Assembly (NCBI GenBank): GCA_022482625.1
Contig: JAKVOU010000001.1
Coordinates: forward strand, 2,342,784-2,406,783
Source: Spirochaetia bacterium
GTDB taxonomy: Bacteria; Spirochaetota; Spirochaetia; Sphaerochaetales; Sphaerochaetaceae
Length of the DNA: 64,000 nucleotides
Reading direction: 5' to 3'
The position numbers and the translations under genes are program-made. How positions within the stretch are numbered: the stretch's first letter is position 1; each line of letters begins with the position of its first letter. Of the stretch, positions 8,842 through 33,065 are shown piece after piece. The notes below the pieces were generated by a model. It did not search any database. It worked only from the letters and a program-made list of their open reading frames with translations, and had not been told where the DNA came from.

Positions 8842-8872
8842 TTGACAAAATGATATATCAGGTATATCATTT
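8842..8872 (+). promoter_or_regulatory. tctC promoter with overlapping GntR-type operator
   Basis: TTGACA at 8842-8847 and TATCAT at 8865-8870 are 17 bp apart, a near-consensus sigma70 promoter. The interval is occupied by a perfect inverted repeat, AAATGATATA and TATATCATTT with a 5-bp centre (8848-8872). A dimeric regulator bound here would cover the promoter, so repression is expected; the GntR protein at 7583 is the obvious candidate. Confidence 0.65.
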
Positions 8873-8915
8873 CGATTGTAGAAAAAGTTTCGTGAATATA
8901 AACGGAGGATTAAGA

Positions 8916-9911: not shown

Positions 9912-9932
9912 AAAAGAATCAGGAATAAAGAT

Positions 9933-9965
9933 CCATTGTTGGGAACGGACTGTTTTCGACAATGG
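9933..9965 (+). promoter_or_regulatory. Intercistronic hairpin after tctC
   Basis: 9933-9946 pairs with 9952-9965 over 14 bp including three G-U pairs, with a 5-nt loop. No T-run follows. Same position and form as the hairpins behind the ABC binding-protein genes. Confidence 0.6.
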
Positions 9966-10014
9966 TATATGTTTGATAGAAGCTTTAAGTTTCTGGAAGT
10001 AGATGTGGTGTTCT

Positions 10015-10512: not shown

Positions 10513-10513
10513 T

Positions 10514-11998: not shown

Positions 11999-12007
11999 CA
12001 TTGGATA

Positions 12008-14365: not shown

Positions 14366-14376
14366 GAGAAATAAGT

Positions 14377-15138: not shown

Positions 15139-15217
15139 ATTGATGCCTGGGGACAGGCTTGTCTTATAATGACACTGTTTCTGTCCTCAGGATTCAGTGA
15201 ACGAGGAGATGATGACA

Positions 15218-16504
15218 ATGGATATGAAAAAGAAAGCTTATGATTTATTGGTTGCTTGGCGTGGAAATTCCTACATACATGGTCTTGGGGTTATTGGAAA
15301 GCTTGGTGCCGTAGCAAAGAAATATGGAAGGTCGACATTATTGGTAGTCAATGAAACATCAATGAAACCTTATATGGCTGAAATTCGGAATTCTCTTGCA
15401 GCTGAGGATATTACAATTTGTACAGTTGCTCCAGCTGCCAGACCGAATGCACCTCGGGAGGATGTGTTTCGGTTGGTAACATATATTTTGGAGTTTAAAC
15501 CTGATTCAATATTGGTCGTAGGCGGAGGTTCCTCTATTGATGCATGCAAATGTGCAAGTGTCTTGGCATCCTTGGGTCGGAAAGTAACCCCGGAGATTGA
15601 TCATTATTTCGGTACTGGCGTCGTTTCTTCCGATTTGCATGAAACAGGATGTAGCCTGGTGCCTGTGATTGCTGTCCAGACTTCAGCTTCATCAGGAGCA
15701 CATTTGACAAAATATGCAAATATTACAGATCCAGTGGCAGGACAAAAGAAGCTGATTGTAGATGATGCAATCGTACCAGTATCTGCAGTATTTGATTATG
15801 CATTAACAAGGACCATGCCTTTGAAGGTAACCATTGATGGTGCTTTGGATGCAATTGCGCATACGTTTGAGGTCTTTTGTGGGGCGAAAGGGTCATCGTA
15901 TGGTCTTGCTGAAGAACTGGCAACTACAGCTATCAGTCTATGTGCTGAATATGCAACGAGACTGGTAAGTAATCTTGATGATATCGAAGCCCGTGAAGCA
16001 GTAGGGTTGGCTACGGATCTGGGAGGATATGCCATAATGATAGGTGGTACATCAGGAGCGCATCTGACTAGTTTTTCCTTGGTTGATCTGGTCGGTCACG
16101 GAACAGCTTGTGGCATAATGAATCCATATTATGCGATTCTTTATTCTCCTGCTATCCAACCTCAGCTTAAAGTAATTGGAAAAGTGTTTAGCAAATATGG
16201 CTATATTGATTCTTCAATTGATGGAGCTGAAGGGCGTGAACTGGCAATTGCTGTGGCCAAGGCGATGATTGCTTTCGGAAAATCAATTCAAGCTCCGACG
16301 ACTCTTGGGGAGCTGCCCGGTTTTTCCGATGACTATATCAAACGTGCATTGATTGCAGCAAAAGATCCTCAACTGAAGATGAAATTACAGAATATGCCTA
16401 TTCCAATGAATTCAGAGGATGTTGATGTGTATATGGCCCCCGTATTATATGCAGCTGTGGATGGGAATCTGTCACTTATCAAGGAAATGCCGATGCGAAG
16501 ATAG
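15218..16504 (+). CDS. Iron-containing alcohol dehydrogenase
   Basis: Group III metal-dependent alcohol dehydrogenase (428 aa) interconverting an alcohol and an aldehyde or ketone with NAD(P). The N-terminal nucleotide domain has VVGGGSSIDACK. The helical metal domain has conserved His in GALDAIAHTFEVF and in DLVGHGTACG. Start 15218 is preferred because GAGGAG (15203-15208) is 9 bp upstream; the GTG at 15197 and the ATGs at 15209 and 15212 are poorly spaced. Likely role: reducing or oxidising the small aldehyde from the aldolase. Substrate unknown. Confidence 0.88.
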   Translation: MDMKKKAYDLLVAWRGNSYIHGLGVIGKLGAVAKKYGRSTLLVVNETSMKPYMAEIRNSLAAEDITICTVAPAARPNAPREDVFRLVTYILEFKPDSILVVGGGSSIDACKCASVLASLGRKVTPEIDHYFGTGVVSSDLHETGCSLVPVIAVQTSASSGAHLTKYANITDPVAGQKKLIVDDAIVPVSAVFDYALTRTMPLKVTIDGALDAIAHTFEVFCGAKGSSYGLAEELATTAISLCAEYATRLVSNLDDIEAREAVGLATDLGGYAIMIGGTSGAHLTSFSLVDLVGHGTACGIMNPYYAILYSPAIQPQLKVIGKVFSKYGYIDSSIDGAEGRELAIAVAKAMIAFGKSIQAPTTLGELPGFSDDYIKRALIAAKDPQLKMKLQNMPIPMNSEDVDVYMAPVLYAAVDGNLSLIKEMPMRR

Positions 16505-16607
16505 CGGAAGGTCTATACTTTCGTTTTGTAGCAAAATATTCATGTGTTGGTGAAATGGCATTTGTTTGCATATCTGTTATGTTCTGCATTGACTTTGAGG
16601 AGGTAAC

Positions 16608-17888
16608 ATGAACATCAATTTACCCTATGGTAAAAGTTCTCTGATGATGGAAATTGATAAACGGCAGGTAAAAGGTATTATGGAATCTGGTTTACATGCA
16701 TATGTTCCACTGGCGGATGGTGAGACATTGGTTGAAAATGCGTTGCTTCATCCTGTCTGTTCAAAACCTTTGGCTGATCTTGCAAGAGGGAAGCATGAGG
16801 TAGTATTGATTGCCAGTGATCATACCCGGCCTGTTCCCAGTCGAATCATCGTACCTCGCATGCTTCGTGAGATAAGAAGGGGGAATCCGCATGTTCATGT
16901 TACTATACTAATTGCTACAGGATGCCATCGGGGTATGACTGAACAAGAACTAGAATTGAAATTTGGAAAAGAAATCGTTGAAACAGAAGATATAGTAATG
17001 CATGACTGTACGGACCAATCTAATATGGTCCATATAGGAACACTACCCAGTGGTGGTGAATGTCTGGTCAATGGTTTGGCTCAGAAGGCAGATTTGTTGG
17101 TTGCAGAAGGTTTTATTGAACCTCATTTCTTTGCAGGGTATTCCGGTGGACGGAAATCTGTTTTACCTGGCATTGCAAGCCGTAAGACAGTATTGGCCAA
17201 TCATTGTAGTGAATTCATTGCAGACGACCATGCACGGACCGGGATATTGGATGAAAATCCAATACACAAGGACATGGTATGGGCTGCACGACAAGCTGGT
17301 TTGTCTTTCATTGTTAATGTTGTACTTGATGCTGAAAAACATATTGTCTTTGCAACTGCAGGAGATACAATAGCAGCCCATGAAGCCGGATGTCATTTTC
17401 TAGATGGATTAAGTAGGGTTAATCCGATTCCTGCTGATATAGTTGTTTCAACCAATGGAGGGTATCCCCTTGATCAAAATGTGTATCAAGCTGTCAAGGG
17501 AATGACAGCTGCTGAAGCGACGGTACGTGAAGGTGGTGTCATCATCATGGTGGCCAAAGCTGATGATGGAATAGGCGGTGAAGCTTTTTTTCATCAAATG
17601 GCAGATGAGCCTGATATTGAAAAGACCAGATGTTTGTTTTTATCAAGGAACAAGAATGAAACCGTACCCGACCAGTGGCAGAGTCAGGTATTTATCCGTG
17701 TCCTTCAAAAAGCGACAGTGATTTTCATAAGCAGTATAAATGATACTATCGTTCGGGATTTACATATGATTCCGGCTCATGATATAGGTGAAGCACTTTG
17801 CCTTGCAGCAAAAATAATTGGTAACAGCACTCCTTCAGTTACGATAATACCGGATGGGGTATCGATTATCGTTGATAAAGTGTTTTGA
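16608..17888 (+). CDS. LarA-type 2-hydroxyacid racemase/epimerase
   Basis: 426-aa homologue of nickel-pincer lactate racemase LarA, which inverts C2 of 2-hydroxy acids by hydride transfer. Key residues can be placed: D71 and R74 in SDHTRP, H107 in ATGCHRGMT, H173 in EPHFFAGYSGGRK with K183 (the residue that carries the cofactor in LarA), H199, and later YPLDQNVYQAVKGM. GAGGAGGTAAC precedes the ATG. No larB, larC or larE cofactor genes are seen in the window, so the pincer cofactor must be made elsewhere. Probably converts the imported acid to the stereoisomer used by the dehydrogenase at 19039. Confidence 0.88.
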   Translation: MNINLPYGKSSLMMEIDKRQVKGIMESGLHAYVPLADGETLVENALLHPVCSKPLADLARGKHEVVLIASDHTRPVPSRIIVPRMLREIRRGNPHVHVTILIATGCHRGMTEQELELKFGKEIVETEDIVMHDCTDQSNMVHIGTLPSGGECLVNGLAQKADLLVAEGFIEPHFFAGYSGGRKSVLPGIASRKTVLANHCSEFIADDHARTGILDENPIHKDMVWAARQAGLSFIVNVVLDAEKHIVFATAGDTIAAHEAGCHFLDGLSRVNPIPADIVVSTNGGYPLDQNVYQAVKGMTAAEATVREGGVIIMVAKADDGIGGEAFFHQMADEPDIEKTRCLFLSRNKNETVPDQWQSQVFIRVLQKATVIFISSINDTIVRDLHMIPAHDIGEALCLAAKIIGNSTPSVTIIPDGVSIIVDKVF

Positions 17889-18021
17889 TCTTTTTGCTGT
17901 ACTTTATATTTTTCCATATAATATATGATTTTGTTTCAGATATATGGTTCTGTCCATGGCCGTGTATGATGGAAAATATCGTCGACATAGGGGCATGTGT
18001 AATCAATCAAGGTTGTTTGGT

Positions 18022-18990
18022 ATGAATGAAGATTTCCTTTTGGCTATAAATCGAATGATTGAAAAGGCAATGCCCTGTCTTACATTGGCAGGTATTGCTA
18101 TTGGTTTTTTGCTTGGCGACAAAGTCGCTGTCTATTCCTATCTTGCTGTCCCGCTTTTTGCATTCATGACATTTTCCAGTACATTGAACATGAAAGTGGA
18201 TGATTTTCTATCGACAGTTCGGACTCCTAAATATATTTTGGTTTTTTTTATAGTTTTTCTTGGTGTGCAACCTTTGTTGGCATGGGGGATATCATCTTTA
18301 TTGTTCCCGGGTGATGCACAGATTATCACAGGTTTGGTGCTGTTATATTCGACTCCTATTGCGGTATCTTCTTCTATTTGGACTGATATATATAAGGGTA
18401 ATATGTCCCTTTCCATTACGTTGATTCTCCTGGGTACTTTGGTAGCACCGGTGGCGACTCCTTTCCTTATTCAGTTGTACCGAGGTCATGTAGTACATCT
18501 CCCAGTGATGTCTATGTTCATATCATTGCTTTTGATGATTGTGATTCCCTCCATATTAGGCATTTGCCTTAACGAATTGAGCAATGGACGTTTACCAAGA
18601 CATTTGTCACCGATATGTAAGCCTCTGTCCAAGTTTGCTTTGCTCCTTGTCATTATTGTAAATATAGCCAAGATCAAAAGTTCTATCGGCTCTTTTGAAT
18701 TGGTATATCTTCAATCCGGGCTGTTAGCGATATTTCTCAGTGGTATAGGTTTTATCGGGGGTTTTTTTGCTGCTCGGTTTGCTGGTGGTGATGGAGGATG
18801 TCAGGTTTCACTGATGTTTTCGACCGGTATGCGAAATATCAGTGCTGCATTGGTATTGGCAATTGCCTATTTTAGCCCACGTACAGCAATTCCACTTATT
18901 ATTGGGATTTTGTTTCAACAGGCTATGGCAGCTGTTTTTGGTTCGGTTCTTTTAGGTAGAGAAAAAGAATATCAGGTCAATAAGGCCTGA
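18022..18990 (+). CDS. BASS-family sodium-coupled transporter
   Basis: Membrane protein (322 aa from ATG 18022; longer frame from 17944) with about ten hydrophobic segments, resembling the bile acid:sodium symporter family (SBF-like), whose members carry organic acids. FMTFSSTLNMKVDDF early and FSTGMRNISAALVLA late are typical segments. Neither candidate start has a strong ribosome site; 18022 gives the usual family length. A second carrier beside TctCBA could export a product or import a related acid. Confidence 0.75.
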   Translation: MNEDFLLAINRMIEKAMPCLTLAGIAIGFLLGDKVAVYSYLAVPLFAFMTFSSTLNMKVDDFLSTVRTPKYILVFFIVFLGVQPLLAWGISSLLFPGDAQIITGLVLLYSTPIAVSSSIWTDIYKGNMSLSITLILLGTLVAPVATPFLIQLYRGHVVHLPVMSMFISLLLMIVIPSILGICLNELSNGRLPRHLSPICKPLSKFALLLVIIVNIAKIKSSIGSFELVYLQSGLLAIFLSGIGFIGGFFAARFAGGDGGCQVSLMFSTGMRNISAALVLAIAYFSPRTAIPLIIGILFQQAMAAVFGSVLLGREKEYQVNKA

Positions 18991-19038
18991 AGAAAGAATA
19001 ACCTGTGTTTCCTTATGGCATAGGAAGGAGAATAAGAA

Positions 19039-20001
19039 ATGAAAATAGTGGTATTAGATGGTTATACGTTAAATCCTGGCGACTTAAGTTGGAAAGAACT
19101 TGAAAAAATCGGGGAATTGTGTGTATACGATCGAACTGAATCTTTTCAAATTATCGATAGAATCGGTAATGCAGCATATGTTTTTACAAATAAAACCTCT
19201 TTGGGAGAGGACGTTTTTGCTGCTTGTCCTAATCTGCAATATATCGGTGTACTTGCTACAGGATATGATATCGTGGATGTTGTTGCTGCAGCCAGACATG
19301 GGATTATTGTGACAAATGTCCCATCGTATGGGACTAGTGCTGTCTCGCAGTTTGTATTTGCCTTGTTGCTTGAGCTGTGCCATCATGTCGGTCACCATGC
19401 CCAACGTGTTGCTGACGGGGCCTGGGCAACTTGCAAGGATTTCTGTTTTTGGGATTATCCGAGTAAAGAATTGTATGGGAAGGTAATGGGAATTGTAGGT
19501 ATGGGACGAATCGGATATGCTACAGCCAAAATTGCACAGGGTTTTGGAATGAAAGTACTTGCATATGATAAATTAATAAATGAAGAGTGGAAAAATGAAG
19601 GCATAACCTATGTCTCCTTGAAAGATTTGTTCTCTGAATCTGATGTAGTTTCCCTGCATTGTCCATTGTCAAAAGAAAATATCGGTATGATCAACAAGGA
19701 AACAATTTCCCTTATGAAAGACGGTGCATATCTGATCAATACATCCAGAGGCCCTCTGATCGATGAGGATGCTCTCTATGATGCACTTGAAGAAGGAAAA
19801 CTGGCAGGAGCCGGGCTTGATGTCTTGTGCATAGAGCCACCCTCTGGACATAACAGGTTGTCTACCCATCCTAATTGTTTGGTTACTCCACATATAGCAT
19901 GGTCGCCGAAGGAATCAAGACAACGGCTTATGGATGTTGCTGTAAATAATCTCCGAAGTTACATCAATGGAAAAACTGTTAATGCCGTTAGGTCCTTTTG
20001 A
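19039..20001 (+). CDS. D-2-hydroxyacid dehydrogenase
   Basis: 320-aa NAD-dependent D-isomer 2-hydroxyacid dehydrogenase of the glycerate dehydrogenase/hydroxypyruvate reductase group. The Rossmann motif GMGRIGYATAKIAQGFG is followed by an Asp suggesting NAD preference. Catalytic Arg lies in NTSRGPLID and His in PHIAW. AAGGAGAATAAGAA precedes the ATG. Last gene of island A. It probably interconverts the imported 2-hydroxy acid and its 2-keto form, giving the substrate for the HpcH/HpaI aldolase. Confidence 0.9.
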   Translation: MKIVVLDGYTLNPGDLSWKELEKIGELCVYDRTESFQIIDRIGNAAYVFTNKTSLGEDVFAACPNLQYIGVLATGYDIVDVVAAARHGIIVTNVPSYGTSAVSQFVFALLLELCHHVGHHAQRVADGAWATCKDFCFWDYPSKELYGKVMGIVGMGRIGYATAKIAQGFGMKVLAYDKLINEEWKNEGITYVSLKDLFSESDVVSLHCPLSKENIGMINKETISLMKDGAYLINTSRGPLIDEDALYDALEEGKLAGAGLDVLCIEPPSGHNRLSTHPNCLVTPHIAWSPKESRQRLMDVAVNNLRSYINGKTVNAVRSF

Positions 20002-20261
20002 TAGCATAAATATCAGTTTATCAATTCTTATTTTATTTGTAATAATGAGTTACTTTTTGATAGGCCTTTATTAGGCTGATTTATATTTATTTGAATCGTT
20101 GTTTCCTAGAGTTGATGGTACAGAAAGGCCTTACATGCGGGGGACAACGAGTTTCTTTTATTTTATGCATTGTGGTTCAGTCATATTCCTGTTGCTTTGA
20201 AATCTTTCTGTTAGCATCCATGGCCATATATATTGGTTTTTTTGTTTCCCGAAGCTGTTGG
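20002..20261. other. Island A right edge, non-coding
   Basis: AT-rich 260 bp between the dehydrogenase stop and repeat A. A 67-codon open frame has no start signal or recognisable protein. No integrase remnant is visible. Confidence 0.5.
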
Positions 20262-20388
20262 ATATATTTGTTTTTCCGACATTTGATGATATGATTATAA
20301 AATGTTTCGGAGAAAAAAACTATTTGTACAGATTCTTTTGAATTTCCTTGCCATAATGCTGATTCCCTTAGGGTTCTTTGTCTTCCTG
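20262..20388 (+). repeat. Direct repeat A, right copy
   Basis: Near-identical to 7291-7417. It spans the upstream region and first 29 codons of the intact sensor kinase gene. Because the copied segment includes the sequence in front of the ATG, insertion of island A could leave the kinase gene with much of its own promoter. Confidence 0.93.
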
Positions 20389-22062
20389 ATCATCCCTGTG
20401 AGCAAGATGGAAGTCTTGAAACAGCTTGAGCGTGAGGCTGCCTTGGCACTGGATGTGGATACTGCGGCCATGGAACAGCTTGTTTCCCAATATCGGCATA
20501 AGGCCTATGCAATTTCAACAGATCCGAACTTGATCAAGCTATTGCAGCTTCCGAAGGAAAAACGTGATCCCTCTCTGGTCAAGACTATTTATACTGATGT
20601 CTTTTCCATAATGAAAGGGGACACCTACAAGGCTTCGGCACATATTGTAAGCAGCGATGGGGAGGTCCAGCTGTCTACCCATCTTTTTCCCAAACGTTAT
20701 GACCCACGTCTGTCGACCGGTGAGTCTGACATGACCAATCCCATTACATGGAATGTACCTGGGCCATCCACGGAACTTTCTATTCAGAACAGATACACCA
20801 ATGAAATCGGGGATCAGGTATGCATGTCATTTACCAGGAATGTATTTGATGCTGATGACAACAATCTCGGCTATGTAATCGTTGATATCTATGCTGAACT
20901 TCTTGATGCCTTGCGGAGCAAAAAACCTATCTTTGACGAAGAGTTATTGGTCAATCCCGAACAATTCTTTGCTGCATCGGTATTGGATCTTTCAAAATAC
21001 GGAGATTATACGAATTTTCCCAGTCTGGCTGAACGTCCGAAGGGTAAGATGCAGGAAGGCATATTCAGGACAAAGAACTATGTACTGTCTTTCAGACGAC
21101 TGACCGGCACACAGCTTTTTCTTGTGGGGGCCATAAGGATCGGGCAGTACAGCCGGAACATGGAAGTAATCGTAAGCATGCTTCTGGCTTCCTTGGTCAT
21201 TGGTTTCTGTCTGTCTCTGGTTTTGGCATACTACTTTGCAAAACGGTTGACGGAACCGATTCATGAAGTAATAAAAAGCATGCATTATGTCGAAGAAGGC
21301 AATCTGACGATCCGTATCAAGGAAAACCAAATTGAGGAAATCAACCAACTGAATGACAGTTTCAACAACATGGTCATCAAACTTGTCCAGTTGCTGCAAC
21401 GCATTCAGGAAGATGACAAGAGAACGTTGGAAGCTGAAAGGAAAAATCTTGCAGCACAGCTCAATCCTCATTTTCTTTTCAATACGCTCAATACCATCAA
21501 AGCCTTGGCCAAGATCAACGGACAGGATGAGATATATGAGATCAGTATCAAACTTGGAAATTTGCTTAGGGACAATCTCTATGATACCAATGCAGACAGT
21601 ACGGTAGAAGCAAGCATGGACCTTGTCCGTGATTATCTTGCCATACAGAAAATCAGGTTCGGAACAAAACTGAAGGTATATGAAGATATTGAAGAAAAAG
21701 TCTTGGAATTGAGGATTCCGAAGCTTATTATCCAACCGTTGGTTGAAAATGCATTGAAACATGGTCTGGAGCCAAAGACCGGGGAGTGGGAACTGAGGAT
21801 CAGCTGCCGTGAAGTACATGAAGGAAAGATGCTTGAAATCTGTGTTGCAGATAATGGCATCGGTATCGACAGAAATCTATATGCCGAAGATTTTGCAAAA
21901 TTCAAAGGCTCGTCGCATGTCGGACTTTACAATATCTACCGGCGGTTGATACTGAACTATGGAACTGATATGGATTTTTCTGTGACCAAAGGACGTGAAG
22001 GAGGAACGGTTTCTACGATACTTCTGCCGCTCAGATCTACCTTCAGGGAGGTATTGTCATGA
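20302..22062 (+). CDS. YesM/LytS-type sensor histidine kinase
   Basis: 586-aa membrane kinase. A transmembrane segment at about residues 10-30, an extracytoplasmic sensor region to about 290, a second membrane segment near 295-318, a HAMP linker, then the His_kinase domain with NPHFLFNTLNTIK (H390 the likely phosphorylation site) and an HATPase domain (LVENALKHG, ADNGIGID). Kinases of this class usually sense carbohydrates or the binding proteins of sugar importers. No Shine-Dalgarno is seen before ATG 20302 and a possible -10 lies very close, so the mRNA could be leaderless. The gene overlaps the regulator gene by 4 bp. Its first 29 codons are duplicated at 7331. Confidence 0.93.
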   Translation: MFRRKKLFVQILLNFLAIMLIPLGFFVFLIIPVSKMEVLKQLEREAALALDVDTAAMEQLVSQYRHKAYAISTDPNLIKLLQLPKEKRDPSLVKTIYTDVFSIMKGDTYKASAHIVSSDGEVQLSTHLFPKRYDPRLSTGESDMTNPITWNVPGPSTELSIQNRYTNEIGDQVCMSFTRNVFDADDNNLGYVIVDIYAELLDALRSKKPIFDEELLVNPEQFFAASVLDLSKYGDYTNFPSLAERPKGKMQEGIFRTKNYVLSFRRLTGTQLFLVGAIRIGQYSRNMEVIVSMLLASLVIGFCLSLVLAYYFAKRLTEPIHEVIKSMHYVEEGNLTIRIKENQIEEINQLNDSFNNMVIKLVQLLQRIQEDDKRTLEAERKNLAAQLNPHFLFNTLNTIKALAKINGQDEIYEISIKLGNLLRDNLYDTNADSTVEASMDLVRDYLAIQKIRFGTKLKVYEDIEEKVLELRIPKLIIQPLVENALKHGLEPKTGEWELRISCREVHEGKMLEICVADNGIGIDRNLYAEDFAKFKGSSHVGLYNIYRRLILNYGTDMDFSVTKGREGGTVSTILLPLRSTFREVLS

Positions 22063-22787
22063 AACATACCGTAGTGCTTGTCGAAGATGAAGAAATTGAA
22101 CTCAAGGAACTTGAACAGGCTTTTGACTGGGCCGGTCTGGGCCTTGAGGTTGTCGGAACAGCAAGGGATGGGATTGAAGGAAGAAGGTTGATTGAACAGC
22201 TTTCTCCTGATATCGTCGTGACAGATATCCAGCTGCCAGGGCAGAATGGCTTGGATATGGTCAAACCTTTTGAGAATCTGCGTGTGCTGATTGTTTCCGG
22301 TTTCAGTGATTACCGTTATATGAAGGAAGCAATTCTCATCGGTGTGGAGGATTACTTGCTGAAGCCGGTCGATGACAAGGAACTTGAAGATGCCTTGCGT
22401 AAGATCATTGCTGATCTTGCGGATCGGCATGTGCGGCAGATTGAGGCTATTCCCTTGAAAAAAGATGTCAGTAGCTATCTTATCAGGGAAGCCATTGCTT
22501 TCATTGACAAAAACTACGGAGCACAGATCGGCTTGCATGAGACCGCGACGGCACTGGGCATCAGTGAGGTGCATCTTTCAAGGGCATTCAAGGAATCTGC
22601 AGGAATCAATTTCCTTGCCTATCTTAATTCCTATAGGATCAATATGAGCATTTCCCTTATGGCTGATCCGAACAACAGGATAACCGATATTGCTTCTGCC
22701 TGTGGTTTTGTCTCGCAGGGGTACTATACCAAGATTTTCAAACGCTATATCGGCATGACCCCGACGAAATATAGGGAAAATCTGTAA
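22059..22787 (+). CDS. YesN-type response regulator, AraC DNA-binding domain
   Basis: 242-aa regulator: receiver domain with acidic EDEE at residues 9-12, phosphoacceptor D56 in VVTDIQLPG and Lys near 106, then two AraC-type helix-turn-helix motifs, the second in ITDIASACGFVSQGYYTKIF. ATGA overlap with the kinase stop indicates translational coupling. The pair probably controls a carbohydrate uptake operon nearby, but no target site can be named. The last 51 codons form part of repeat B and recur at 31972. Confidence 0.93.
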   Translation: MKHTVVLVEDEEIELKELEQAFDWAGLGLEVVGTARDGIEGRRLIEQLSPDIVVTDIQLPGQNGLDMVKPFENLRVLIVSGFSDYRYMKEAILIGVEDYLLKPVDDKELEDALRKIIADLADRHVRQIEAIPLKKDVSSYLIREAIAFIDKNYGAQIGLHETATALGISEVHLSRAFKESAGINFLAYLNSYRINMSISLMADPNNRITDIASACGFVSQGYYTKIFKRYIGMTPTKYRENL

Positions 22788-22817
22788 GACTGTTTGTTTT
22801 TCTTTGGAAAAATCGTA
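22631..22817 (+). repeat. Direct repeat B, left copy
   Basis: 187 bp matching 31972-32158 with a single C/T difference. It covers the 3' end of the response regulator gene and 30 bp after its stop. The copies bracket island B exactly. Confidence 0.96.
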
Positions 22818-23070
22818 ACATCGGAATAGTTTGTTATTAATTATAGAATTAGATATTCCGTATGAGTATCTGTGTATGTCTTTTTCTGGAATTTAACAAA
22901 TTATTTGTGTTTAAATTTTCTATGAATACTAAGAAAAAGATGGTATTGTAAGGTAAATATGATATAATCTATCAAGTTGTAAACTGGTTTAATGTGTTTC
23001 TTTTTTCAATTTGGATAATTATAACAAGTCATAATTATGATTGAAATAGACATATAGGAGAAAAAATGCT
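22818..23070 (+). promoter_or_regulatory. Upstream region of the defence operon
   Basis: AT-rich leader with TATAAT at 22963-22968 but no good -35 box at the right distance. AGGAG at 23056-23060 serves a three-codon frame, ATG CTT TGA (23066-23074), whose stop overlaps the TTG start of the first gene. Confidence 0.4.
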
Positions 23071-24525
23071 TTGAGGTCAATTACTATTTCGCCATATGCT
23101 CCTACACTTATTGAGTCTATACGCGCTGTTGGATATACACTGGAATCGGCGATTGCAGATATTATTGATAATAGTGTTACTGCTACTGCTTCACATGTTG
23201 AAATAGGATACTTACCTTATAATGATCCATATATAACAATTCTTGATGATGGGAATGGTATGGATGCTTTTGAACTTGAAGCTGCAATGCGATATGGTAG
23301 TCAGAACCCAAATGTTAAGCGGGCACCGACAGACTTAGGTCGTTTTGGATTGGGGTTAAAAACGGCTTCTCTTTCCCAATGTCGAATTTTGACAGTTGTG
23401 AGTAAAAAGAATAATAAAATAGAAGCTCGCCGATGGGATATTGACCATGTAATAAAAACTGAGGCATGGTCTCTTATTGTTCTTGAAACCGAAGAAGAAC
23501 TTAATGATATTCCCCAAATTACCAACTTATCCAATTTGGAACATGGAACATTAGTGGTATGGCAAAATCTTGATAGATTAAAGAATGGTGAGTCAAATTT
23601 TAATCTTTCGTTTGGATCAAAAATGGATAATGTTCGTAGCCATCTTTCCCTAGTTTTTCATAGATATTTAAGTGGGGAAAAAGGTTTGCAAAAGCTTGAA
23701 ATAAAAATGAATAATATTCCTATAGAATATGTCGATCCATTTTTGCAGAATCGACATACTCAGGTTATGGCTGATGAGATTTTATGTATCGGAAAATCAA
23801 AAGTTACAGTCAGACCTTATATTTTACCTCATATATCTATGCTTTCCTCTGATGAACTTAAAATGCTTGGAGGAAAAGATGGATTACGGAAAAGCCAGGG
23901 ATTTTATGTATATAGGAATAAACGTCTTTTAGTTTGGGGAACATGGTTTCATATGATGCGCAAAGGCGAATTATCTAAATTAGCCCGTATCCAAGTTGAT
24001 ATTTCAAATGATTTAGATAATCTCTGGACGCTCGATATTAAGAAATCTACAGCAATGCCTCCTGAAATAGTTCGAAAAAATCTAAAATCTATTATTGAAC
24101 GTATGGCTGAACATAGTAAACAAACATGGGTTTGTAGAGGCAAGAAAGAAACAAATGAATCTGTAGTTCACATTTGGCAAAGACTCAAAGGACGTCAAGG
24201 GGGAGTATATTATGTTATTAATCGTGACCATCCCATAATAAAAGTTCTATTTGAAAGCTCTCCACAAATAAAACATAATGTTGAAATGTTACTGAAAATA
24301 ATTGAGGATAACATTCCATTTAATAATCTTTATCTTGATTTGACTACAGAAAAAACGCTTGACAATGAAGCTGAGACAAACGCACAGACTATTGAAAATA
24401 TGTTGCAAGATTTACTTGAGGAGCAGTTGACGCAGTTTAAAAAAGAAGAACTGCTTAAACAATTATCAAAATCAGATCCATTTGATAAGTATCCAGAAAT
24501 AATTAAAAAACTTCAAAGGAGTTGA
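23071..24525 (+). CDS. GHKL (MutL/MORC-like) ATPase, defence operon
   Basis: 484-aa protein with an N-terminal HATPase_c_3 domain. ATP-binding motifs: ADIIDNS (residues 29-35, N34 the Mg-binding Asn), LDDGNGM (58-64) and the lid LGRFGLGLKTAS (89-100). The C-terminal half has no recognised domain. The only in-frame start is TTG at 23071, 10 bp after AGGAG; the ATG at 23066 is in another frame and ends after two sense codons. GHKL ATPases of this type were linked by comparative genomics to restriction-modification operons. Here it probably acts as an ATP-driven clamp with the helicase encoded 8 bp downstream. Confidence 0.85.
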   Translation: MRSITISPYAPTLIESIRAVGYTLESAIADIIDNSVTATASHVEIGYLPYNDPYITILDDGNGMDAFELEAAMRYGSQNPNVKRAPTDLGRFGLGLKTASLSQCRILTVVSKKNNKIEARRWDIDHVIKTEAWSLIVLETEEELNDIPQITNLSNLEHGTLVVWQNLDRLKNGESNFNLSFGSKMDNVRSHLSLVFHRYLSGEKGLQKLEIKMNNIPIEYVDPFLQNRHTQVMADEILCIGKSKVTVRPYILPHISMLSSDELKMLGGKDGLRKSQGFYVYRNKRLLVWGTWFHMMRKGELSKLARIQVDISNDLDNLWTLDIKKSTAMPPEIVRKNLKSIIERMAEHSKQTWVCRGKKETNESVVHIWQRLKGRQGGVYYVINRDHPIIKVLFESSPQIKHNVEMLLKIIEDNIPFNNLYLDLTTEKTLDNEAETNAQTIENMLQDLLEEQLTQFKKEELLKQLSKSDPFDKYPEIIKKLQRS

Positions 24526-24532
24526 ATATAAA

Positions 24533-27301
24533 ATGGAAACGCCTATAGCACAATTAGAAACGATAATTTCTGCTCACATAAATTCTAATTTTCCGGAAGT
24601 ACCACCTAGTGAAGAAGAATTTGATGTTATAGTTTCTCTGTTGCGTCAATCGCTTGATTCTGTATGTCATGTTTCAGATATTGAATTTAATGAATTAAGG
24701 CGAAAATTAAAGGCAAATATAGTTGTTAAGATGGATATTGGTATTGCGATAAAAAATAAAGACCAAGCCCATCATTCATGGTTACCTTCTCGCCGTTCTG
24801 AGCTTGATTTTTTCTTTTGGAAGCGATATGAAACTTATCTCGGTGAAGTAAAAAAATGGAATCCACGGATTATCGGTGCATTGGGAAGAGTTTCTGATGA
24901 AATTGTAGACCTTTTGGGAGATCCGCAATCTCAAGATGCATTTCAACGGCGAGGTCTTGTCTTAGGTGACGTTCAATCAGGTAAAACTGCAAATTATACT
25001 GCAATTTGTAACAAAGCTGCTGATACTGGGTATCGAATAATAATTGTGCTTGCTGGTATGATGGAGAATCTACGTCAACAAACACAAGGGCGCTTAGATA
25101 CAGAGTTTTCAGGACGTAAGAGTGAATATTTTCTTGATCCGCAAAAAAAAATACTTAACTGTTCGTTTGGCGTTGGACGATATGGTTCTGAAAAAAGGAT
25201 TGCTTCTTTTACTTCTGTTGTAAAAGATTTTAATATTAATATTCTTAAAAGCCAAAATCTCTCATTACTTAGTGTTCATGATCCTGTATTGTTTGTTGTA
25301 AAAAAGAATAAAAGGATTTTAAATAATTTAATTCGATGGTTTAAAACTAACAATGTTATCAATGGCCAGAAAATAAATTTGCCTCTTCTGCTGATTGATG
25401 ATGAAGCAGATAATGCTTCTGTTAATACAAAACAGACAGGAGGGGATCCTACTGCTATCAATAAGGCAATTCGAACCCTTCTTAGTTTATTTAAACAGGC
25501 TTCATATTTAGGTATAACGGCTACTCCTTATGCGAATATTTTTATTAATCCTGAAACACAGGATGATATGATAGGGGATGATTTATTTCCCCGTGATTTT
25601 ATTTATTCATTAGCTCCTCCTACAAATTATATTGGCGCTACGGATATTTTTGGTGATGATGCCCCATACAAGAGTTGTCTTGAACCAATATATCCTGAGG
25701 AAATCAATGCTTTTTTTCCGATTAAACACACAAAAAATTATCAAGTACCAGATTTGCCTCCAAGTTTAAAAGAAGCAATGGCCTATTTTTTGTTAGTAAA
25801 TGGAATACGAGATTTACGAGGAGATAATAAAACTCATCGATCTATGATGATTCATATAAGTAGATTTACAAATGTTCAGAATCAAATTCGTGATTTAGCT
25901 ATGGAGTGGTTATCGCAAATACGTTCTGATTTACAAAATTATTCCTGTTTAGCTGAAGAAAAAAGCTACATGATACCAAATATAAAATTTCTTAAAACAG
26001 TCTGGACGAAATATCAACTAAATGAAAAAGTTAATGAAAATGATGGCAACATAATTTCTTGGCATGAATTCTTATCAATCTATCTATATAAGGCGGTAGC
26101 ACCGGTAGAAATACGTTCTGTTAATCAATCAAGTGGATCAACAAGTCTGGATTATTTTAACCACCGGGAGGATGGCTTACGTGTAATTGCTATAGGTGGT
26201 AATAGTTTATCGAGAGGTTTAACACTTGAAGGGTTATGTGTCAGTTATTTTTATCGCAAGACTTTGATGTATGATACATTACTTCAAATGGGACGGTGGT
26301 TTGGGTATCGTCCAGGTTATGAAGACTTGTTTAAAATTTGGATTTGTTCTGAAGCAATAGATTGGTATGGTTTTATTACAAGTGCATCAGAAGAGCTTAA
26401 ATTTGAAATTGCCAGTATGAGAAATGCTAATCTTACACCAAAGGAATTCGGTTTGAAAGTCCGCCAAGATCCTTCTTCTTTAATTGCAACTGCACGGAAC
26501 AAAATGCGAACAGCGACTATGATTAGTCGCCCTGTGACTGTTTCTGGCCGTTTGCTTGAAACGCCACGATTAAAAGCAGATAAACAATCTTTAGAGGACA
26601 ATGAAAGTGTATTTAAAAATTTTGTCCACCAATTGGATGATATCGGACATAGATGTATAAAAGAAAATGCTCGGTTCTACTGGGAGGGAATTGACAAAGA
26701 AGATGTTGCTCAGCTTCTATGTGAGTTCAAAACACATTTATGGCATTTGTCATTTCAAGGTCCTGCGTTGGCAGAATATATTAGACTCAATATGGATAAT
26801 GTCCTTTGGGATGTAGTTATTGCGGAAGGGTCAGATGATAATTTTGAATTATCTTGTGGTGATAAAATCCTGAATATTAAGCCGGAGAAACGTACAATTA
26901 TTGCTACTTCTTCACAGATTAGTATCAGTGGTACCAAGGTACGTGTTGGTACGGGTGGTGCTGCTAGGCTAGGACTTTCTAAAAAGCAAAGAGAACAAGC
27001 TGAAGAAAAATTTAAACAATTGCATCCAGGGAAAAAACATGTTCCAGATAGTGCATATTTAATTAAGGATCGTCCACCTTTGCTGATGTTGCATGTTATA
27101 TCTGTCGATAGAACAACAATTGATGAAAAAACAGGAAATATAAAATCGCAGATTGAAGAGGGATGCCAGGTTCCAAATTATCTTTATGCACTGGGAGTCG
27201 GTTTTCCTTTTACTGGAGAAGAAGAAAAAACGGCGAACTATGTAGTCAATCTTGTTGAACTTAATAATTACTATAATGCAGATGAGGAGAATGATGAATG
27301 A
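24533..27301 (+). CDS. Z1-domain superfamily II helicase, defence operon
   Basis: 922-aa putative endonuclease/helicase with the Z1 domain. Walker A is GDVQSGKT at residues 145-152; Walker B LLIDDEAD near 285; motif III GITATPYAN; and the characteristic late block QMGRWFGYRPGYEDL, preceded by GGNSLSRGLTLEG. It ends with a 4-bp overlap into the PD-(D/E)XK gene. Z1 proteins are typical partners of GHKL ATPases, AIPR proteins and Dcm methylases in defence loci. It is expected to move along or remodel DNA so that unmodified invaders are cut. Confidence 0.88.
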   Translation: METPIAQLETIISAHINSNFPEVPPSEEEFDVIVSLLRQSLDSVCHVSDIEFNELRRKLKANIVVKMDIGIAIKNKDQAHHSWLPSRRSELDFFFWKRYETYLGEVKKWNPRIIGALGRVSDEIVDLLGDPQSQDAFQRRGLVLGDVQSGKTANYTAICNKAADTGYRIIIVLAGMMENLRQQTQGRLDTEFSGRKSEYFLDPQKKILNCSFGVGRYGSEKRIASFTSVVKDFNINILKSQNLSLLSVHDPVLFVVKKNKRILNNLIRWFKTNNVINGQKINLPLLLIDDEADNASVNTKQTGGDPTAINKAIRTLLSLFKQASYLGITATPYANIFINPETQDDMIGDDLFPRDFIYSLAPPTNYIGATDIFGDDAPYKSCLEPIYPEEINAFFPIKHTKNYQVPDLPPSLKEAMAYFLLVNGIRDLRGDNKTHRSMMIHISRFTNVQNQIRDLAMEWLSQIRSDLQNYSCLAEEKSYMIPNIKFLKTVWTKYQLNEKVNENDGNIISWHEFLSIYLYKAVAPVEIRSVNQSSGSTSLDYFNHREDGLRVIAIGGNSLSRGLTLEGLCVSYFYRKTLMYDTLLQMGRWFGYRPGYEDLFKIWICSEAIDWYGFITSASEELKFEIASMRNANLTPKEFGLKVRQDPSSLIATARNKMRTATMISRPVTVSGRLLETPRLKADKQSLEDNESVFKNFVHQLDDIGHRCIKENARFYWEGIDKEDVAQLLCEFKTHLWHLSFQGPALAEYIRLNMDNVLWDVVIAEGSDDNFELSCGDKILNIKPEKRTIIATSSQISISGTKVRVGTGGAARLGLSKKQREQAEEKFKQLHPGKKHVPDSAYLIKDRPPLLMLHVISVDRTTIDEKTGNIKSQIEEGCQVPNYLYALGVGFPFTGEEEKTANYVVNLVELNNYYNADEENDE

Positions 27302-28239
27302 TAATAACTTCAACATTTCTCCAAAATGAATGGAAAAGTATAACATACAAAGATGGAGGGTATTTGCAAATTGATGTTATACATCCTCTCGAGTGGTTTG
27401 TTGGGTACCAATCAAGAAAACAAAAAACTTTGTTACTTATTGGTTCTATTGAAAGCGATGAAATTAAATCTTCGAAATCAATTCTAGTTACCCGTCGTAA
27501 ACGGGAGACAGATAATCGGAATGTTTTATCGTTTGAATTACTTCATAATGAACAGAATGAAGTGTTTGCAACTTTTTGTGCGGATATTATTGAGTATTCT
27601 AGAAAAGCTACTGATGAAAAAAGCGCACTGAACCTTGTTGTGAGACGTTATAAGCAATGGAGCTGTTTACTGGAAGCAGAAAAACTTTCCTTTATGGATG
27701 AAAAATGCCGTAAAGGATTATTAGGAGAACTCTTATTTATACAAGAACGAATTAAATCAAGTGGTTCCATATTAAAAACAATACAGGGATGGGTTGGTCC
27801 AAATGGTGCAGACCAAGACTTTATTTTTGAAGATGTTTGGTATGAAATAAAAAGTATCGATTTGGCAGCAACTAGTATAACCATTTCTTCCTTAGAACAA
27901 CTTGATACTCAAAATACTGGAGAACTTGTTGTAATGAGGATTGATAAGTCTGCGCCTGAAAAAATGGGTGCAATTTCTTTAAATGATGCAGTGAGTAAAA
28001 TTGATTGCTTATTATCAGATATTCCTGAAGCTTTTGATTTGTTTCATTTAAAATTAAGTAATTATGGGTATATTGATTTGAAAGAGTATTCTATGCAGAA
28101 ATATTATTGCTCTAAAATTCAACGATATGATGTCAATGACACTTTTCCTAGAATGTTAAGGAGAAAAGTTCCGTCACAAATTGAATCCTTGCATTATGAA
28201 TTAAGTTTACCTGCATTGGAAAACTGGCTGAAGAGGTAA
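27298..28239 (+). CDS. PD-(D/E)XK motif protein (DUF4420-like), defence operon
   Basis: 313-aa putative nuclease. KGLLGELLFIQ holds a conserved Glu (E144), ADQDF the Asp (D174) and WYEIKS the E-x-K (E183, K185), together a PD-(D/E)XK core. It begins inside the Z1 stop (ATGA) and ends 5 bp before the AIPR gene. Best candidate for the DNA-cutting subunit of the system. Activity is inferred from motif and context. Confidence 0.8.
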   Translation: MIITSTFLQNEWKSITYKDGGYLQIDVIHPLEWFVGYQSRKQKTLLLIGSIESDEIKSSKSILVTRRKRETDNRNVLSFELLHNEQNEVFATFCADIIEYSRKATDEKSALNLVVRRYKQWSCLLEAEKLSFMDEKCRKGLLGELLFIQERIKSSGSILKTIQGWVGPNGADQDFIFEDVWYEIKSIDLAATSITISSLEQLDTQNTGELVVMRIDKSAPEKMGAISLNDAVSKIDCLLSDIPEAFDLFHLKLSNYGYIDLKEYSMQKYYCSKIQRYDVNDTFPRMLRRKVPSQIESLHYELSLPALENWLKR

Positions 28240-28244
28240 ACATT

Positions 28245-30323
28245 ATGGATTCTAAAGAATTTCGAGAAGACTTTTTAGAGGATATCAAAGCTGAAGCAGA
28301 AATTAGTGGAGAAGGGTCAACTGCATCATTTGTTAATTCATTTGCTGATTATCTTACAGAATCAGAGTTGCTTGTAGACTTTGTTCCTGCTTACTTTGAG
28401 GGGACCGGGAAAAATAATAAAAAAATAAGGGTAGATGGCTATGCCTATGATGATGAATTGACTAAAACACTTAGTTTAGTAATTGCAGATTATGATATTT
28501 CTGAAAATATAGTAACGCTTACAAAGACGAAAGTAAAACAATTGCAATCAAAACTGGTTGCTTTTTTAGAGAATGCATTGAATTTTCCTCATTATCTTGA
28601 AATGGACATGAGCAGATCTTGCTCGGATTTGGTAGATTTATTACGTGAAGAGCGTAATAAAATACGTAAGTATCAATTTTTTATCTTTACTACAGCTCCG
28701 ATAAGTCAGGCAATTTCTACTATTGAATCCTCAGATATTGATGGAATTCCTTCTGAGTGTCAAATCTGGGATATCGATAGATTGTTTAAAGTTTGTGGTT
28801 CAGATACAGGACGAAATATTATAGAAATAAATTTCAAAGAATATTCAGGTAAAGGAATTCCCTGTATGGAGGCAAGTAATACAGAAACAGAAGATTTTAA
28901 AAGTTATTTGTGTGTCATGCCAGGTACTCTTTTAGCTAATATTTATGATAAGTATGGTAGTAGTTTACTTGAAGGGAATGTACGTTCTTTTCTTTCAACA
29001 AAAGTTGCTGTAAATAAGAAAATTCGTAAGACCATTTTAAATTCTCCTGAACGTTTCTTTGCATATAATAATGGTATTTCCGTAACAGCCATGGATGTTC
29101 AGATTGAGAATAATTTTCTTGTTTCTGCAAAAGATTTTCAAATAATTAATGGAGGACAAACTACTGCATCGCTTTCTAGTGCGAGATTCAAATACAAGGA
29201 CAAAGTAAACTTAGATTTAATTTATGTACAAATGAAACTTACTGTTATTGAACATACTTCAGAACAGGATGCAACAGAACTTGTTCAGAACATTTCTCGT
29301 TCATCAAATAGTCAGAATAAAGTTAGTGACGCTGATTTTTTCTCAACACATCCTTTTCATGTTCGTATGGAAAGATTTTCACAACGACTATATGCAAGAG
29401 CAGTTAACGGGGCGCAACATGAGACTCGTTGGTTTTATGAGCGCGCTCGTGGGCAATATCTTCAAAAACAGATGCGAATGACGCCTGGTGAAAAAAAGAA
29501 GTTTTTGTTACAAAATCCGAAGAGGCAACTTATTACAAAAACGGATTTAGCAAAGGTTCAAAATACATGGCAAGAAATTCCTCATATAGTAAGTAAAGGC
29601 TCACAAAAAAGTTTTTCGGTGTTTGCTGACACGATTGGCAATAATTGGGACGCTTCAAACAATGGCTCTGTCTATAACGAAAAATACTTTAAGGAAAGTG
29701 TTGCGCTGGTCTTATTGTTTAGATATAGTGAAGTACTGGTCTCAAATCAACCATGGTATGCAAATGGGTATAGAGCAAATATTGTAACATATACCATTGC
29801 TCTTTTACATTATTTAATTAAGAAACAATTTGAGGGAATGGATTTGGATTTGATGAAAATTTGGATGCAACAAAGTATACCAGAGGCTGTAGAGATGTCT
29901 TTAACAGAGTTATCTAAGCAGGTTTATTACAAATTAACTGATCCTACTCGCCAAGTTGAAAATGTAACGCAATGGTGCAAAAGAGAAGCTTGTTGGGAAA
30001 ACGTTAAATCAATTAATTATATTTTGCCTTTGGGAATTAAAGAGAATCTTATTAGTATAGAAGAACAGAAAATTGCTGTTCAGCAGGCAAAAAAAACACA
30101 ACGGATAGATTCTGATTTAGAAATACAAACTAAAGTGATAACTATAACAAAAACACAATGGCAAAGTGTTTTGAATTTTGCAGATTCTAAACATATGCTC
30201 ACTACTGAGGAAAAGGTAGCATTACGAATTGCTTCTAAGCCGGGAAAAGTTCCCAATTCTATTCAATGTAAGAAATTGATTTCCTTGCTCGATAGATTAC
30301 AACTTGAAGGATTCAAATTATGA
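28245..30323 (+). CDS. AIPR-family abortive infection protein, defence operon
   Basis: 692-aa protein with the AIPR (abortive infection phage resistance) core: FFAYNNGISVTA followed by DFQIINGGQTTASL at about residues 265-310. The N-terminal 200 residues look like a separate alpha/beta domain with nuclease-like spacing, but I cannot place catalytic residues with certainty. It overlaps the methylase gene by 4 bp. AIPR genes recur next to Z1 helicases. Its role could be cell suicide or shutdown when restriction fails. Confidence 0.83.
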   Translation: MDSKEFREDFLEDIKAEAEISGEGSTASFVNSFADYLTESELLVDFVPAYFEGTGKNNKKIRVDGYAYDDELTKTLSLVIADYDISENIVTLTKTKVKQLQSKLVAFLENALNFPHYLEMDMSRSCSDLVDLLREERNKIRKYQFFIFTTAPISQAISTIESSDIDGIPSECQIWDIDRLFKVCGSDTGRNIIEINFKEYSGKGIPCMEASNTETEDFKSYLCVMPGTLLANIYDKYGSSLLEGNVRSFLSTKVAVNKKIRKTILNSPERFFAYNNGISVTAMDVQIENNFLVSAKDFQIINGGQTTASLSSARFKYKDKVNLDLIYVQMKLTVIEHTSEQDATELVQNISRSSNSQNKVSDADFFSTHPFHVRMERFSQRLYARAVNGAQHETRWFYERARGQYLQKQMRMTPGEKKKFLLQNPKRQLITKTDLAKVQNTWQEIPHIVSKGSQKSFSVFADTIGNNWDASNNGSVYNEKYFKESVALVLLFRYSEVLVSNQPWYANGYRANIVTYTIALLHYLIKKQFEGMDLDLMKIWMQQSIPEAVEMSLTELSKQVYYKLTDPTRQVENVTQWCKREACWENVKSINYILPLGIKENLISIEEQKIAVQQAKKTQRIDSDLEIQTKVITITKTQWQSVLNFADSKHMLTTEEKVALRIASKPGKVPNSIQCKKLISLLDRLQLEGFKL

Positions 30324-31951
30324 GTTTTAAACACCAATATAGTGTCGTTGATTTGTTTGCTGGTGCGGGAGGCCTTAGTTGTGGATTTTTGCAAACAGGC
30401 AGATTTTTTATAAAGGCAGCATTTGAAAAAAATAAAAAAGCTCAGCAAACTTATAGACTAAATCATAACGATGCTCTGATTTATAATGATGTTGTTGATA
30501 TATTCAAAGATGAAGTAATGACTAAATTGGGTAAGGTGGATGTTGTTATTGGCGGACCTCCTTGTCAGGGATTTTCAAATGCCAACAGGCAGAAAAATCA
30601 TGCAATCAACCAAAACAATTCGCTTGTAAAACAATATGTTAAGGCTATACTTCATCTTAATCCAATGGCATTTGTGATGGAAAATGTAAGTATGTTAAAG
30701 TCTGATGTTCATCGTTTTTTTGTCGAAGAAGGTGATGATGAAATTATAAAGAAGTATCAGATTAAAACGATTCCTTCAGAAATTAAACTTTTAGATGCTG
30801 AATTTGTTTTTCCCGGAATTGTTGAAATTGTTACAAATATAGATAATATAATAAATTACATATGGAGCGAACATGACTATTTGTCTTTAAATGTAGCATA
30901 TAAAACAAGAAATAATCCTAAAAAATTACGTATCACTCTTGAGAGACATAAAACAGAACTTCTTGCCTTTTCACATATTTTAACTTCTTTAGATGGCGAT
31001 GTGAATCCAATCTTGAAATATTCCTATGAGGCTGGAGTTGCTATACAAGAATATTTCAGTTTTGAGACTACGTGTGATGATGCTGAAAAACTTTGTAAGA
31101 TGATTAAACCATCAATTCTGTTTCAAAGGATGTTGTCCAAAGCAAAGGAATTACTTGATAATCATATTAAAGTTGACTGTTTTTCATTAGAAACGGGGCT
31201 TGTTGCTCATGTTACATCTATGGCAGTTATTGATTATATTGAATCTATTTTGGGGGATAATAGCGGCGGTTATAAGCTAACTTCTGGAATATTGCCGGCT
31301 GTCACTTTTGGAGTACCACAGAAAAGAAAACGCTTTATTCTAATGGGAATAAAAAAAACAATTAGTAAGAATGTGACACTTCCTGTTGGTACATTTTCTG
31401 AGGCAAATTATAACACAGTTAGAGATGCTATAGGTGATTTGGAAGACATTGAAACGGTTGTACATATTTCAGATGATGCGACAGGAAAGCTTTTACCAAA
31501 GGCTCCCCAAAATATTAGTGAGCTTGGGATACGTCTTCGTGATTCACCTGTACTTTTTAACCATGTTTCAACTGCAACAACTCCAGAAGCTTTAAAACGT
31601 TTTAAGTTTATTAAACAAGGAGAAAATTTTCATAGTTTGCCATCGGAGCTCAAGACTACTTACTCCAATATTGAACGCACACAAAATACTATCTACCTAA
31701 GGTTAAAGTATGATGAACCTTCTGGTACGGTAGTTAATGTGCGAAAATCAATGTGGATTCATCCAATTAGGCATCGAGCCCTGAGTGTCCGAGAAGCTGC
31801 ACGTTTACAAACTTTTCCTGATAGTTTTGTATTTTGTGGAACAAAAGATGCACAATATCAACAAGTTGGAAATGCGGTACCTCCAATGCTAGCAAAAGCT
31901 ATTGCAGAACATTTATGTAAATATCTAGATAAAAAGGAAACTACTAAATGA
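30320..31951 (+). CDS. C5-cytosine DNA methyltransferase, defence operon
   Basis: 543-aa C5-methylase that would mark self DNA for this system. Motif I DLFAGAGGLSCGF (residues 11-23), motif IV GGPPCQGFS with the nucleophile C82, motif VI ENV with E121, motif VIII QKRKR and motif X QQVGNAVPP are all present, so the enzyme looks active. A segment of about 190 residues lies between motifs VI and VIII where typical Dcm enzymes have a few tens. It ends 20 bp before repeat B with no terminator. No Vsr repair gene accompanies it. Confidence 0.9.
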   Translation: MSFKHQYSVVDLFAGAGGLSCGFLQTGRFFIKAAFEKNKKAQQTYRLNHNDALIYNDVVDIFKDEVMTKLGKVDVVIGGPPCQGFSNANRQKNHAINQNNSLVKQYVKAILHLNPMAFVMENVSMLKSDVHRFFVEEGDDEIIKKYQIKTIPSEIKLLDAEFVFPGIVEIVTNIDNIINYIWSEHDYLSLNVAYKTRNNPKKLRITLERHKTELLAFSHILTSLDGDVNPILKYSYEAGVAIQEYFSFETTCDDAEKLCKMIKPSILFQRMLSKAKELLDNHIKVDCFSLETGLVAHVTSMAVIDYIESILGDNSGGYKLTSGILPAVTFGVPQKRKRFILMGIKKTISKNVTLPVGTFSEANYNTVRDAIGDLEDIETVVHISDDATGKLLPKAPQNISELGIRLRDSPVLFNHVSTATTPEALKRFKFIKQGENFHSLPSELKTTYSNIERTQNTIYLRLKYDEPSGTVVNVRKSMWIHPIRHRALSVREAARLQTFPDSFVFCGTKDAQYQQVGNAVPPMLAKAIAEHLCKYLDKKETTK

Positions 31952-31971
31952 GAGGTACTCTACTGTACTTT

Positions 31972-32128
31972 CTATAGGATCAATATGAGCATTTCCCTTA
32001 TGGCTGATCCGAACAATAGGATAACCGATATTGCTTCTGCCTGTGGTTTTGTCTCGCAGGGGTACTATACCAAGATTTTCAAACGCTATATCGGCATGAC
32101 CCCGACGAAATATAGGGAAAATCTGTAA
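31972..32128 (+). pseudogene. Response regulator 3' fragment
   Basis: Last 51 codons of the YesN-type regulator (second helix-turn-helix and C-terminus, ending TPTKYRENL), in frame to its TAA but without a start. It is the displaced original gene end left on the far side of island B. Confidence 0.93.
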
Positions 32129-32158
32129 GACTGTTTGTTTTTCTTTGGAAAAATCGTA
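31972..32158 (+). repeat. Direct repeat B, right copy
   Basis: 186 of 187 positions match 22631-22817. Downstream of it the ordinary chromosome resumes, leading to the inositol monophosphatase gene. Confidence 0.96.
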
Positions 32159-32249: not shown

Positions 32250-33065
32250 ATGATGGAAATTGAAGCATATGGAGATTTTGTACAGCAACTTGCTGCTGAT
32301 GCCGGAGCTCTTGCACTTTCGTATTGGAAAAGTCTCGACAAGGTAAAGGCAAAGGGAAAAGGCAGTGGACTTGATATCGTCACTGAAGCTGATGAGGCTG
32401 TCGAGAAGTATATCAGAGAAGCTATCGGCAAGCGATATCCGACACATGCTATCTACGGAGAAGAAGGTGGCATGACTGCAGGAGATGATTACAGATGGGT
32501 CATCGATCCGATTGACGGGACAGTTTCTTTTTTCCATGGGCAGTTCCATTGGGCTGTTTCCATTGCCTTGCAATATAAGGGACAGACCATTGTCGGCATA
32601 GTAACATGTCCTGCGTATGGTTTGTCATTCTTTGCAATGAAAGGAAGTGGTGCGACCATGAATGGCAAGCCGATTAGCCCGAGTACGGTTGCCCTGCTGT
32701 CACAGGCTGTTGCCTGCACTGGGTTCTGCTGTATCCGTTCAGGATGGAAAGAAAACGGATTGCCTCTTTTTGACAGGATGGCACCGAAGGTCCAAGGCAT
32801 CAGGAGACTCGGTTCCATTGCAACGGACATCAGCTTTGTTGCCTGTGGCAAATTGGACGTCTGCTGGGAGATGAATGTCAATCTCTATGATGTGGCAGCT
32901 GCGCTGCTCATCGCAGAAGAGGCCGGGGCAAAGGTTACGGACATGTCTGGGAAAACTGAACATCTTCCGAATTTTCCCCTTGTTTCCAATGGCCTTTTGC
33001 ACGGGCAGGTACTTGAAGTCTTCAAGGGATTCGACATTCCTTATCAAAACAGGAAAGGCTCTTGA
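32250..33065 (+). CDS. Inositol monophosphatase family phosphatase
   Basis: 271-aa SuhB-like Mg-dependent sugar/inositol phosphate phosphatase. YGEEGG, the metal site WVIDPIDGT near residue 88, and LYDVAAALLIAEEAGA near the C-terminus are the family signatures. GGGGAAGG lies upstream of the two adjacent ATGs (32250, 32253). In the reconstructed locus it followed the response regulator. The actual substrate may be a sugar phosphate. It faces the GNAT gene convergently. Confidence 0.9.
   Translation: MMEIEAYGDFVQQLAADAGALALSYWKSLDKVKAKGKGSGLDIVTEADEAVEKYIREAIGKRYPTHAIYGEEGGMTAGDDYRWVIDPIDGTVSFFHGQFHWAVSIALQYKGQTIVGIVTCPAYGLSFFAMKGSGATMNGKPISPSTVALLSQAVACTGFCCIRSGWKENGLPLFDRMAPKVQGIRRLGSIATDISFVACGKLDVCWEMNVNLYDVAAALLIAEEAGAKVTDMSGKTEHLPNFPLVSNGLLHGQVLEVFKGFDIPYQNRKGS

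Follow-up and report, generated by a model that had tools for sequence, protein, structure and literature searches.

The defence operon described here was probably acquired horizontally by a Sphaerochaetaceae chromosome, as an 8.9-kb cassette that inserted beside a response-regulator gene and copied 187 bp of its target. The evidence comes from the structure of the locus, from a neighbouring island built in the same way, and from related cassettes in other genomes. The window is the whole 64-kb stretch of DNA that was analysed; coordinates without a contig name are positions in it, and the features that they locate lie on its forward strand.

A five-gene operon between 187-nt direct repeats

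Two direct repeats of 187 nt (22631-22817 and 31972-32158), recovered by an independent repeat search and compared base by base, agree at 186 of 187 positions; the sole mismatch, at 22676, is synonymous (Asn codon AAC/AAT). The repeated segment consists of the final 157 nt of an AraC-type response-regulator gene, stop codon included, and 30 nt 3' of it. Copy 1 belongs to the intact target gene (22059-22787; Response_reg and AraC-type HTH domains in Pfam), which forms a host gene pair with a sensor histidine kinase gene (20302-22062; Pfam), and copy 2 is joined to the side of an inositol-monophosphatase-family (IMP) gene on the right flank (32250-33065; Pfam), whose ORF begins 91 bp beyond the repeat. 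The segment occurs twice in the whole genome (3.47 Mb in three contigs), both times at this locus, and its length and identity are such that a chance origin is not an issue. Between the repeats the G+C content is 0.31-0.37, compared with about 0.42-0.47 outside. The 64-kb window holds no tRNA genes, and neither a terminator-like hairpin nor a convincing promoter signal was found at the junction.

The first defence ORF begins 253 bp after copy 1. Five ORFs follow in the same direction, with two 4-nt overlaps and no internal stops: a MORC-type GHKL ATPase (23071-24525; Pfam HATPase_c_3; PADLOC MzaB, E 5e-92), a Z1-domain SF2 helicase (24533-27301; Pfam Z1; PADLOC MzaC, E 7e-123), a DUF4420 PD-(D/E)XK nuclease (27298-28239; Pfam DUF4420; PADLOC MzaD, E 6e-21), an AIPR protein (28245-30323; Pfam AIPR; PADLOC MzaE, E 3e-79), and a C5-cytosine DNA methyltransferase (30320-31951; Pfam and motifs). 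From the last base of the methyltransferase stop codon to copy 2 is 20 bp counted from 31972, or 17 bp to the first matching base at 31969. The helicase motifs are intact (Walker A GDVQSGKT, DDEA, and DTLLQMGRWFG), as are the D-(x)n-EIK motif of the nuclease and the methyltransferase motifs. One operon thus encodes the MORC ATPase, Z1 helicase, PD-(D/E)XK nuclease, AIPR protein, and cytosine methyltransferase that define a MORC/Z1/AIPR system. No recombinase, integrase, or transposase domain was found by Pfam in the five ORFs. The preliminary description had proposed each of these elements, and all of them held up under base-by-base and Pfam analysis: the 186/187 match, a five-gene defence operon without a recombinase between the repeats, and a duplicated segment of chromosomal coding sequence that leaves the target gene whole on one side. 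The same genome contains another, diverged MORC/Z1/DUF4420/AIPR locus 45 kb past the window (L065; G000:C1 about 2448000-2455300), which has no flanking repeats.

A second island beside the same gene pair

Directly upstream of the kinase and regulator genes lies another direct repeat, of 113 nt with one mismatch (7295-7407 and 20266-20378). Its outer copy follows an intact NUDIX gene and contains the pre-kinase region with about the first 75 nt of the kinase gene, while the inner copy is continuous with the intact kinase gene. Weak in-register similarity extends past the 113-nt core at 7260-7294, and identity towards the edges (7266-7407 and 20237-20378) falls to about 70%. Enclosed by the two copies is a 12.9-kb catabolic cluster (7408-20265) with a GntR regulator, TctCBA, a transketolase-like protein, an HpcH aldolase, an Fe-ADH, LarA, an SBF permease, and a 2-hydroxyacid dehydrogenase; no recombinase was found in it, and the NUDIX gene on its left and the kinase gene on its right are both intact. 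Since one repeat lies at the start of the kinase gene and the other at the end of the regulator gene, two islands flank a single two-gene unit.

We surveyed about a quarter of the chromosome (870 kb) for further repeats. Short-range direct repeats unrelated to insertion sequences (IS) comprised the 187-nt and 113-nt pairs and two further candidates, and there were no such inverted pairs at short range; the remaining repeats in the surveyed stretches were set aside as IS copies. One candidate is a dehydrogenase-like gene of 1032 bp duplicated at 99.6% identity (G000:C1 1990167-1991198 and 1996421-1997452); the 5.2-kb insert that separates the copies carries genes for an oxidoreductase and a LacI-type regulator as well as an isomerase-like gene. 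The other is a direct repeat of about 125 nt (G000:C1 2470227 and 2472314) flanking a DUF4143-like ATPase gene. Two control stretches of 400 kb each gave no such pairs (G091) and one repeat-rich region with a few short pairs (G113); the repeat-rich region (G113:C1 1729000-1748200) carries dense direct repeats of 100-750 nt across 19 kb, which possibly encode repeat-rich proteins.

Searches of the available collections for an empty site at this locus found none: congeners proved too diverged in both DNA and protein searches, their regulator sharing only 52-54% protein identity with that of the window, and a scan of genome contigs returned a single, unrelated match. In two congeners a convergent sugar-ABC permease gene lies 70-80 bp beyond the kinase-regulator pair; in the window this gene is located beyond the IMP gene and an acetyltransferase gene. 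This arrangement implies that more than the defence cassette has entered the interval. The IMP gene, previously taken as the ancestral neighbour of the regulator, does adjoin copy 2, but judging from the gene order in these two congeners it may not have been the original neighbour.

Related cassettes in other genomes

In a tree of Z1 proteins, the window protein clusters with loci from clostridia and phage contigs at 62-68% identity (support for the nearest set, 99/99), apart from other members of its own family, to which it is about 40% identical. The defence operon is of clostridial affinity, and this foreign placement supports a horizontal origin well. Related cassettes also travel as exact units with no linked recombinase. 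Two loci in different genera (L067 and L068) are 89.9% identical at the nucleotide level over 8.65 kb, in a common block that begins 14 bp ahead of MzaB and ends 65 bp short of the methyltransferase start, and are unrelated outside it. Another pair (L073 and L095) shares 91% identity over 10.4 kb, starting 28 bp ahead of the first gene and ending at the AIPR stop codon, and a third (L070 and L093) shares 77% over 8.9 kb, the cassette again being all that the two loci of each pair have in common. Because each of these pairs is alike in the cassette alone, the unit moves by itself, leaving its neighbours behind and having no recombinase linked to it.

The flanks of 29 Z1 loci were scanned for direct repeats spanning the operon. 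Against background scores of 12-22, three loci stood out: the window (187), G037 (158), and G011 (37). Such flanking repeats occur in only two or three of about a dozen MORC/Z1/AIPR loci in the family with usable flanks. G011 belongs to another genus of the same family and carries a five-gene cassette (L069:5781-14649) with a 37-nt direct repeat on either side; the two copies are identical, each combining the final part of a host ORF with a hairpin. The cassette spans from 20 bp beyond the AIPR stop codon to the stop codon of the methyltransferase gene, the last two bases of which belong to a target copy. In its sister species G018, the same flanks (82% and 91% identical in nucleotides) are joined at one 37-nt copy without a cassette, and in four congeners (G005, G012, G013, and G014) both flanks lie within about 70 bp of each other, with the cassette absent. 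Sequence comparison with G018 thus demonstrates that the insertion in G011 duplicated 37 bp of target, although an integrase since lost could in principle have used the 37-nt repeats as att sites. The insertion process is not uniform among these cassettes: for the G091 locus, G101 supplies an empty site and no duplication is seen, and the G037 cassette occupies what looks like an integration hotspot (see below). The right flank of the cassette in G015 has no counterpart in its genus.

Alternative explanations

The 187-nt repeats could instead be the attL and attR sites of a site-specific element that integrated at the 3' end of a gene, its tyrosine or serine integrase having been lost or supplied in trans. 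A target made of a gene 3' end and downstream DNA is classic for integrases, and the nearest relative of the window cassette (L092) lies in a phage contig beside three ORFs identified by eye as resembling large serine recombinases. Moreover, G037 has a related cassette between 174-nt repeats (L076:6256-6429 and 16648-16821) at the 3' end of guaA, as is the case for the window cassette at the end of the regulator gene. The 174-nt sequence follows guaA in many species and recurs in two or three copies per genome, at other sites too, within the genus, and for that reason the guaA end is best read as an integration hotspot of the integrase type. We accordingly set G037 apart and leave it out of the clear cases of target duplication. 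The window differs in that its repeat does not recur in its own genome. Furthermore, the island has no integrase gene detectable by Pfam, viral contigs do not contain a 30-mer taken from the repeat, and searches of phage and plasmid collections with the repeat returned no matches. The regulator is also species-specific, which makes it improbable that a foreign element would contain 187 bp of its sequence with 99.5% identity. Taken with the points in its favour, these observations make site-specific integration an unlikely origin for the repeats.

A single replacement could also account for both islands, if the interior of the kinase-regulator pair had been exchanged for a foreign block consisting of the catabolic cluster, a complete kinase-regulator pair, and the defence cassette, leaving the start of the kinase gene and the end of the regulator gene as outer remnants. 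The outer copies (7295-7407 and 31972-32158) are indeed gene fragments and the inner copies both complete, the copies within both repeat pairs differ by about 0.5-0.9%, and the left pair shows the in-register similarity beyond its core noted above. Such a replacement would nevertheless require a donor with a near-identical kinase-regulator pair between two unrelated cargoes, and we think it very unlikely; two separate insertions also account for the layout and leave the genes on either side whole. An assembly artefact, or a simple tandem duplication interrupted later, seems hardly credible: four distinct junctions and one diagnostic mismatch within a single 3.4-Mb contig speak against an artefact, and assembly normally collapses short repeats and does not create them.

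Proposed insertion event

Insertion with target duplication, the reading that we favour, would have placed the incoming cassette beside the regulator gene and duplicated 187 bp. On the left the regulator would remain complete, and on the right the downstream neighbour would retain the DNA upstream of it. Most likely, the two cassette ends were joined to the chromosome 187 bp apart by host repair, with no dedicated transposase taking part. A widely staggered break followed by fill-in could produce this outcome, or the ends could have been joined by homology-facilitated illegitimate recombination, a process described in PMC3240628 in which one side would pair and the opposite side would be joined illegitimately. 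A ComEC-family protein is encoded in the genome; its presence fits with uptake of DNA but proves nothing. Once in place, the direct repeats would permit loss or amplification of the island through ordinary recombination. Together the five genes probably provide defence of the restriction type: the methyltransferase would mark self DNA, and the ATPase, helicase, and nuclease would attack unmarked DNA.

The length of the duplication varies, from 187 nt in the window and 113 nt in the neighbouring island to 37 nt in G011 and none in G091. One could imagine that the cassettes are self-mobile, their own nuclease and ATPase cutting the unmethylated recipient chromosome and so driving exact five-gene insertion with long, variable duplications, and restriction breakage itself has been proposed as a cause of such rearrangements (PMC3031569). 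That proposal would apply to the defence cassette and not to the catabolic cluster, and we regard self-mobility as highly improbable. The like architecture of the catabolic cluster and the repeat survey instead speak for a general process of the host, in which DNA is joined with duplication, and less for an activity of the defence proteins. The preliminary description had compared the locus to the insertion of restriction-modification (R-M) units with long target duplication, and this likeness is borne out, structure, length, and cargo all fitting the published description; the implied link to defence units fared less well, given the catabolic cluster next door.

Relation to known systems

Insertion with long target duplication is known for R-M units of Helicobacter pylori (Nobusato et al., 2000, as cited in PMC3874152, PMC3031569, and PMC1643837), and PMC3874152 and PMC3031569 describe the repeats as long and variable, on the order of 100 bp. 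Compared with these cases, the window likewise has a compact defence unit, variable target repeats on the order of 100 bp, a preserved target gene, and no linked recombinase. It differs from them in lying in another phylum, in its five-gene MORC/Z1/AIPR cargo in place of an R-M pair, in having a metabolic cluster of the same architecture alongside, and in the lack of a same-species empty site. By gene content the operon is an ordinary member of its kind. MORC/Z1 restriction-like operons with a novel restriction endonuclease, AIPR, and Dcm were described by Iyer et al., 2008 (PMC2292703), and the window operon corresponds to their third operon type, with the same five components and the DT-hh-QxxRxFG motif. 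It also resembles, with no substantial difference, the putative 'type II' system of PMC9523054 (Z1, PD-(D/E)XK, MTase, and AIPR). Relative to mzaABCDE, it has homologues of MzaB-E in the same order (PADLOC profiles, E 6e-21 to 7e-123), lacks the sigma-factor-like MzaA, which is absent among the PADLOC matches listed for the five proteins, and adds a C5 methyltransferase. A canonical mza locus is present in the same family (L072 in G100), where an MzaA-like sigma-domain protein (L072:5888-8002) that matches the MzaA profile lies beside a MORC/Z1/AIPR operon and a C5 methyltransferase.

Sequence evidence and analogy together support an event of a kind already described, here in a host and with a class of cargo that are new for it; direct proof comes from a relative alone. 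These loci bear on how defence systems that lack recombinases pass from one genome to another. A complex five-gene system is seen here to move between genera as an exact cassette and to land with long target duplications, which takes a style of insertion described chiefly for Helicobacter restriction genes into a different phylum and a different system. Loci with empty sites allow the joining step itself to be studied.
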